From NCBI GenBank assembly GCA_002773695.1, contig PFAJ01000064.1, positions 2,017-40,646 on the forward strand: DNA of 38,630 nt, read 5' to 3'. Of this stretch, positions 18,615-19,080 are shown in pieces. Origin of the DNA: Candidatus Doudnabacteria bacterium CG10_big_fil_rev_8_21_14_0_10_41_10. Lineage in GTDB: Bacteria > Patescibacteriota > Doudnabacteria > UBA920 > 2-01-FULL-50-11. Numbering within the stretch: position 1 is the first letter of the stretch; each line of letters opens with the position of its first letter. A program made the translations under genes and the position numbers. The notes under the pieces were generated by a model. The model searched no databases. It saw nothing but the letters and a program-made list of their open reading frames with translations, and was not told the origin of the DNA.

Positions 18615-18887
18615 TGGAGCCGTTGGTCGGAGTTGAACCGACGACCTACTCCTTCACTTACACCTCTATTTCTCCGCCTGAAACGAATTATAAGAGGGTT
18701 AGACTGTATCTTCTCCTAAATCGGAGCCCTTGTCAGTCGTTCGGGCCGATAAAATATCGGCCACGGTCTTGACCATGTGCTTTGGTTTTTGACCGTTATT
18801 CGGGATTCACTAAGACGTTTCCGTCAAAGTGGGCAGGAGGCTTTGTGCCCCACCATGGAGTTGCTCTACCAGCTGAGCTACAACGGC
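18615..18887 (-). tRNA. tRNA-Thr (GGU anticodon) interrupted by an intron; exons 18852-18887 (5') and 18615-18654 (3')
   Basis: Joined exons GCCGTTGTAGCTCAGCTGGTAGAGCAACTCCATGGT|AAGGAGTAGGTCGTCGGTTCAACTCCGACCAACGGCTCCA give a complete 76-nt tRNA with loop ATGGTAA. Confidence 0.92.
18655..18851 (-). ncRNA. Group I-like self-splicing intron (~197 nt) in tRNA-Thr
   Basis: 5' exon ends in U and the intron ends in G; contains AAGATACAGTCTAA, like the group I S element/P7 3' strand, and a complementary GACTG. Confidence 0.82.
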
Positions 18888-18890
18888 ATT

Positions 18891-18927
18891 ACTTCGCTCC
18901 CGCTTTCGCGGGAGCTACGAAGTGCAA
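18891..18927. repeat. tRNA-adjacent palindromic repeat, copy 1
   Basis: ACTTCGCTCCCGCTTTCGCGGGAGCTACGAAGTGCA. Confidence 0.85.
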
Positions 18928-19080
18928 GCATACCGTTTTCACGATTGCTTATCCTTCCGGAGCTTTTAGTGTTAACGAAAGCGAAGGAAGAAATTACAAC
19001 GGCACTACACAAACAAAAAAGCTCGTGGAAATATTTTAACACACTCCCAAAGATTTTTCCAGTGTTATGGTTATTTTTAA

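Follow-up and report, generated by a model that had tools for sequence, protein, structure and literature searches.

A small group I intron shared with other Patescibacteria splits a Doudnabacteria tRNA-Thr(GGU) gene just 3' of the anticodon

The window, by which we mean the whole 38,630-nucleotide stretch of a Doudnabacteria genome analyzed here, contains on its minus strand an interrupted tRNA-Thr(GGU) gene (18615-18887). The 5' exon of this gene (18852-18887, minus strand, 36 nt) runs from the acceptor stem to the anticodon bases G34, G35 and U36, and the 3' exon (18615-18654, minus strand, 40 nt) runs from A37 to the encoded CCA; both were delimited by the fold of the spliced tRNA and by intronless relatives, in which the 5' exon has exactly the same end. 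Between U36 and A37 lies a group I intron of 197 nt (18655-18851, minus strand), extending from P1 to P9 with its omega-G at 18655, which was delimited by the structure of 58 homologues and by a held-out covariance model.

When run without its intron option, ARAGORN did not detect a tRNA in the unspliced sequence 18615-18887, but it predicted a perfect 76-nt tRNA-Thr(GGT) with the loop ATGGTAA after 18655-18851 had been removed. With introns allowed, the junction was displaced and the gene was called tRNA-His(gtg); annotation tools therefore misname the interrupted tRNA-Thr(GGU), which accounts for this tRNA being missed or misnamed in a share of Patescibacteria. We then performed a DNA search of 61 genomes. 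A homologous insert is present in six of these, and in more than 20 intronless genomes of the same order the matches to query positions 14-49 and 247-289 abut, which corresponds exactly to the junction 18852|18654. These empty sites independently confirm the intron boundaries, and an earlier note, made from the sequence alone and silent on the strand, was thus correct in proposing that excision of these 197 nt restores the tRNA. Moreover, the tRNA exons of carriers and non-carriers are identical within two genera (G023 with G015 and G019; G012 with G007), so that the presence or absence of the intron there reflects a clean intron change. A strong hairpin (18886-18925) adjoins the 5' end of the tRNA, and a 14-nt near-copy of this 5' end is located 116 nt upstream of the gene (18879-18892 and 18995-19008).

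The intron contains a full group I core, P1 to P9, in which the features that characterize group I introns are all present: helices P3 to P8 including P7, the P3/P7 pseudoknot, a U-G pair in P1 at the 5' splice site, and a terminal omega-G with P9.0. P7, the guanosine-binding helix, consists of GACTG (18736-18740, minus strand) and CAGTC (18702-18706, minus strand). The earlier note had pointed to the motif AAGATACAGTC and a complementary GACTG; both are present and together form P7, the five pairs of which are kept in 58 of 58 homologues. P1 is formed by the guide GCC (18832-18834, minus strand), which pairs with the anticodon GGU by three pairs only, with a U36-G wobble at the 5' splice site; the GGU and GCC(C) sequences are invariant in all 58. 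The same holds for U36, the guide G and the terminal G (58/58 each), in line with the U and G that had been noted at the ends of the 5' exon and the intron. In P5, three pairs are capped by a short loop, and 56 of the 58 homologues have a GNRA tetraloop at L2.

Forty-five pairs in ten helices, including the P3/P7 pseudoknot and P9.0, were counted in 58 distinct homologues. The fraction of paired cells was 96.6%, compared with 29-44% when the partners were slid as a control, and 28 of the 45 pairs change on both sides; as the slid control warns, the helices counted were partly derived from the same sequences, a limit that does not touch the both-sided changes. The covariation score was 0.447, versus 0.06-0.085 after sliding and 0.144 after shuffling. 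By helix, the paired fraction was 100% for P3, P4 and P7, 99% for P5, 98% for P6 and 95% for P8. P9.0 is A-U in 50 homologues and G-C in the other eight, without exceptions, and in all eight the change is compensatory, the base after P7 having changed from A to G and that before the terminal G from U to C. The neighboring pair is U-A in 37 homologues and C-G in 19. P1, P4 and P7 are invariant and hence conserved without covariation; support for P1, in which both guide and anticodon never vary, and for P7 consists of conservation.

Covariation that includes P3, P8, P9 and the compensated P9.0 upholds the group I reading of the earlier note, as does the held-out model described below. It also bears on the possibility that this is a protein-spliced tRNA intron of the archaeal or eukaryotic type, near whose canonical position the site just 3' of the anticodon lies. 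A complete, covarying group I fold already contradicts this, and the lengths of the homologues (175-226 nt) and the bacterial host speak against it as well; we rejected this explanation on the fold and give it next to no chance of being right.

The held-out covariance model was trained on 19 introns from outside the class of the window, with the window intron and its class-mates left out. It scored 150.7 bits at 18655-18845, and the next-best match in the window reached 4.6 bits. The Rfam model RF00028 gave no match in the window, neither at its gathering threshold nor at E 10; a Sphinx_1 match obtained with Rfam at E 10 was dismissed as chance. The earlier note had named the lack of an above-threshold Rfam core as grounds for abandoning the group I reading, and formally this is what was found, although such a score does not define the class. 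The miss is a limit of an insensitive model and uninformative on the identity of the intron, because RF00028 gives only 21.6-21.9 bits on two clear sister introns and because, in a search of archaea, it had no significant match where subtype models detected 39 introns (PMC6125680). The 58-member alignment could serve directly as the basis of a model that detects such introns where Rfam does not. Elsewhere in the same genome RF00028 matches only a 23S rRNA group I intron, located on contig C38 (L001:996-1734), which contains a LAGLIDADG endonuclease gene (PF00961, E 5e-10).

All homologues examined, in about 60 relatives, are located at the same site of tRNA-Thr(GGU). An exact core pattern, which was the only search applied outside Patescibacteria, yielded 48 matching stretches in 85,488 species genomes. 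Judged by their junction sequences, all 48 are in tRNA-Thr(GGU); contig L077 ends within the intron and the junction in L033 was read by eye. To judge by the record titles, those with a named group come from Yanofskybacteria, Taylorbacteria, Azambacteria, Moraniibacteriota, Doudnabacteria, Komeilibacteria and other Patescibacteria groups, with a single archaeal record, a contig of Ca. Methanoperedens nitroreducens. Within the window's class, covariance model R1 detected the intron in 7 of 50 genomes. Among 384 sampled Patescibacteria there were 18 matches, 17 of them strong and all in tRNA-Thr(GGU); the weak remaining one is a 16S rRNA intron. Searches of phage and plasmid collections gave matches to the tRNA exons only, or none.

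Besides the interrupted gene, only threonine tRNAs with the anticodons UGU and CGU were detected in this genome, which is about 94% complete, and a second tRNA-Thr(GGU) was not found in it. Given this completeness, a second gene may possibly lie in an assembly gap. As the interrupted gene is the only one for Thr(GGU) detected, splicing is probably essential, and this genome probably requires a working intron. In a reduced genome, a single-copy and probably essential tRNA thus seems to depend on a ribozyme. These observations bear on the idea that the insert is a degenerate group I intron, no longer spliced, in a dead tRNA gene. The window copy does have two U-U mismatches in P2, but its core helices and splice-site bases are all intact, neither tRNA exon shows a defect and a search for a further Thr(GGU) gene in this genome gave none; we rejected this idea on these grounds and regard it as highly improbable. 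A tRNA-like gene of 117 nt in this genome (C34:4235-4351, L172) has well-formed acceptor, D and T arms, whereas its anticodon arm is longer by about 40 bases; it is not conserved in 50 related genomes.

With high confidence, we interpret the insert as a small tRNA-type (IC3-like) group I intron that splits the only tRNA-Thr(GGU) detected in this Doudnabacteria genome, and the loop of which would be restored by guanosine-initiated splicing. In the precursor, the guide GCC would pair with G34, G35 and U36, so forming P1, and the U-G wobble would mark the 5' splice site. A guanosine bound in P7 would attack the bond at this site, the omega-G would be positioned by P9.0, and the freed U36 would attack the 3' splice site; U36 would thereby be ligated to A37, and the anticodon loop would be re-formed. 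To judge from its sequence and fold, the 197-nt RNA almost certainly removes itself from the precursor. Through its invariant guide, the intron would read the anticodon of its host, which would explain its single-tRNA habit; a guide on the anticodon itself would make the specificity of the intron dependent on the identity of the tRNA.

Small group I introns in tRNAs, such as that of Azoarcus, are self-splicing. This, together with the compact core and the GNRA loop L2 in 56 of 58 homologues, argues against an intron that depends for splicing in the cell on a protein, e.g., a tRNA synthetase or an RNA chaperone. The shortness of P1 would fit such dependence, and protein-dependent group I introns are known, for instance those relying on CYT-18 (PMC3984707); we consider it unlikely here.

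The compact build, the lack of P5abc, the GNRA loop L2 and the tRNA host are those of subgroup IC3, to which the intron likely belongs, judged by anatomy alone. The group I (IC3) intron in the anticodon loop of Azoarcus BH72 pre-tRNA-Ile is likewise about 200 nt long, with a short P1, GNRA loops and no endonuclease, a likeness in general features only; the present intron has tRNA-Thr(GGU) as its host and follows U36. Proteobacterial tRNA-Arg(CCU) also carries a small group I intron in its anticodon loop, and other bacterial tRNA introns are known to be inserted directly 3' of the anticodon. Hence, of the suggestion in the earlier note that the site is a less usual one, the part concerning the threonine host stands and that concerning the position does not. 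Small group I introns are also present in the anticodon loops of tRNA-Leu(UAA) and tRNA-fMet in cyanobacteria and plastids (PMC4033280, PMC8450103); from these, and from the tRNA-Arg(CCU) introns, the window intron differs in host tRNA and phylum. Within its own phylum, group I introns occur in rRNA genes and, according to PMC8172020, also in some tRNAs of CPR bacteria, for which the passages concerned name no host tRNA. Unlike the window intron, the rRNA introns of Patescibacteria often hold LAGLIDADG genes, and two of them (L001 and L103) score weakly with the present model (19-33 bits). A report of a group I intron in a bacterial or CPR tRNA-Thr was not found in searches of largely open literature, and this absence is weak evidence. 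Group I introns in bacterial tRNAs are already known; this is a normally built one in an apparently undescribed host, tRNA-Thr(GGU), and adds to them a tRNA host and an insertion-site lineage that are apparently new.

As the earlier note had observed, the intron has no homing endonuclease gene: the longest open frame is 38 codons in the window intron and at most 74 in any homologue. Without an endonuclease, the intron may have persisted by inheritance with losses, by transfer of the intron, or by transfer of the whole tRNA gene. The intron tree splits the introns of Doudnabacteria, the window's class; we rejected horizontal transfer as a conclusion from this split, since an AU test did not reject a single Doudnabacteria clade (p 0.202) and the split thus does not demonstrate transfer. 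Genome G026 contains, about 135 nt upstream of its interrupted tRNA-Thr(GGU), a decayed 5' half of the same tRNA gene without an intron (L004:750-785); this arrangement would fit the acquisition of a complete gene together with its intron. In the archaeal record, contig 6 of Ca. Methanoperedens nitroreducens, the same intron is present in a tRNA-Thr(GGU) with two tyrosine integrase genes directly downstream (L063:1503-1728 and L190:9477-11637). A coupling protein of the conjugation type is encoded at a distance of about 5 kb, with more tRNA genes and a DUF1464 protein beyond. Near the start of this contig there is a second tRNA-Thr(GGU), with a predicted 24-nt intron. In a published archaeal survey, two IC3 matches in archaeal records, possibly including this one, were set aside as possibly contaminating (PMC6125680). 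We tentatively suggest, while considering it somewhat less probable than its opposite, that a phylum-scale, anticodon-reading intron family of tRNA-Thr(GGU), lacking its own endonuclease, spreads in part by whole-gene transfer and has reached this archaeon, upstream of integrases and on one contig with the archaeon's own tRNA-Thr(GGU).

RF00028 matched in 185 of the 384 Patescibacteria, so the phylum is rich in group I introns. Several of its top matches in the phylum (L202, L208, L209, L211, L217, L220, L222, L227, L228 and L230) are in apparent tRNA-Phe(GAA) and tRNA-Asn(GUU) genes. A second, weaker-scoring Patescibacteria set was found in tRNA-Tyr(GUA) and apparently tRNA-Asn(GUU) (L003:2537-2745, minus strand; L088; L094:804-1115; L090). 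Insertion there is after CUGU, with which a GCAG guide could pair, and this fits the idea of anticodon reading. Finally, an IMG/VR viral contig (L080:2922-3110, minus strand) contains an intron-like core (75.8 bits with model R2) that shares its P7 motifs with the present intron; this core is located outside any tRNA, apparently inside or next to a protein gene.
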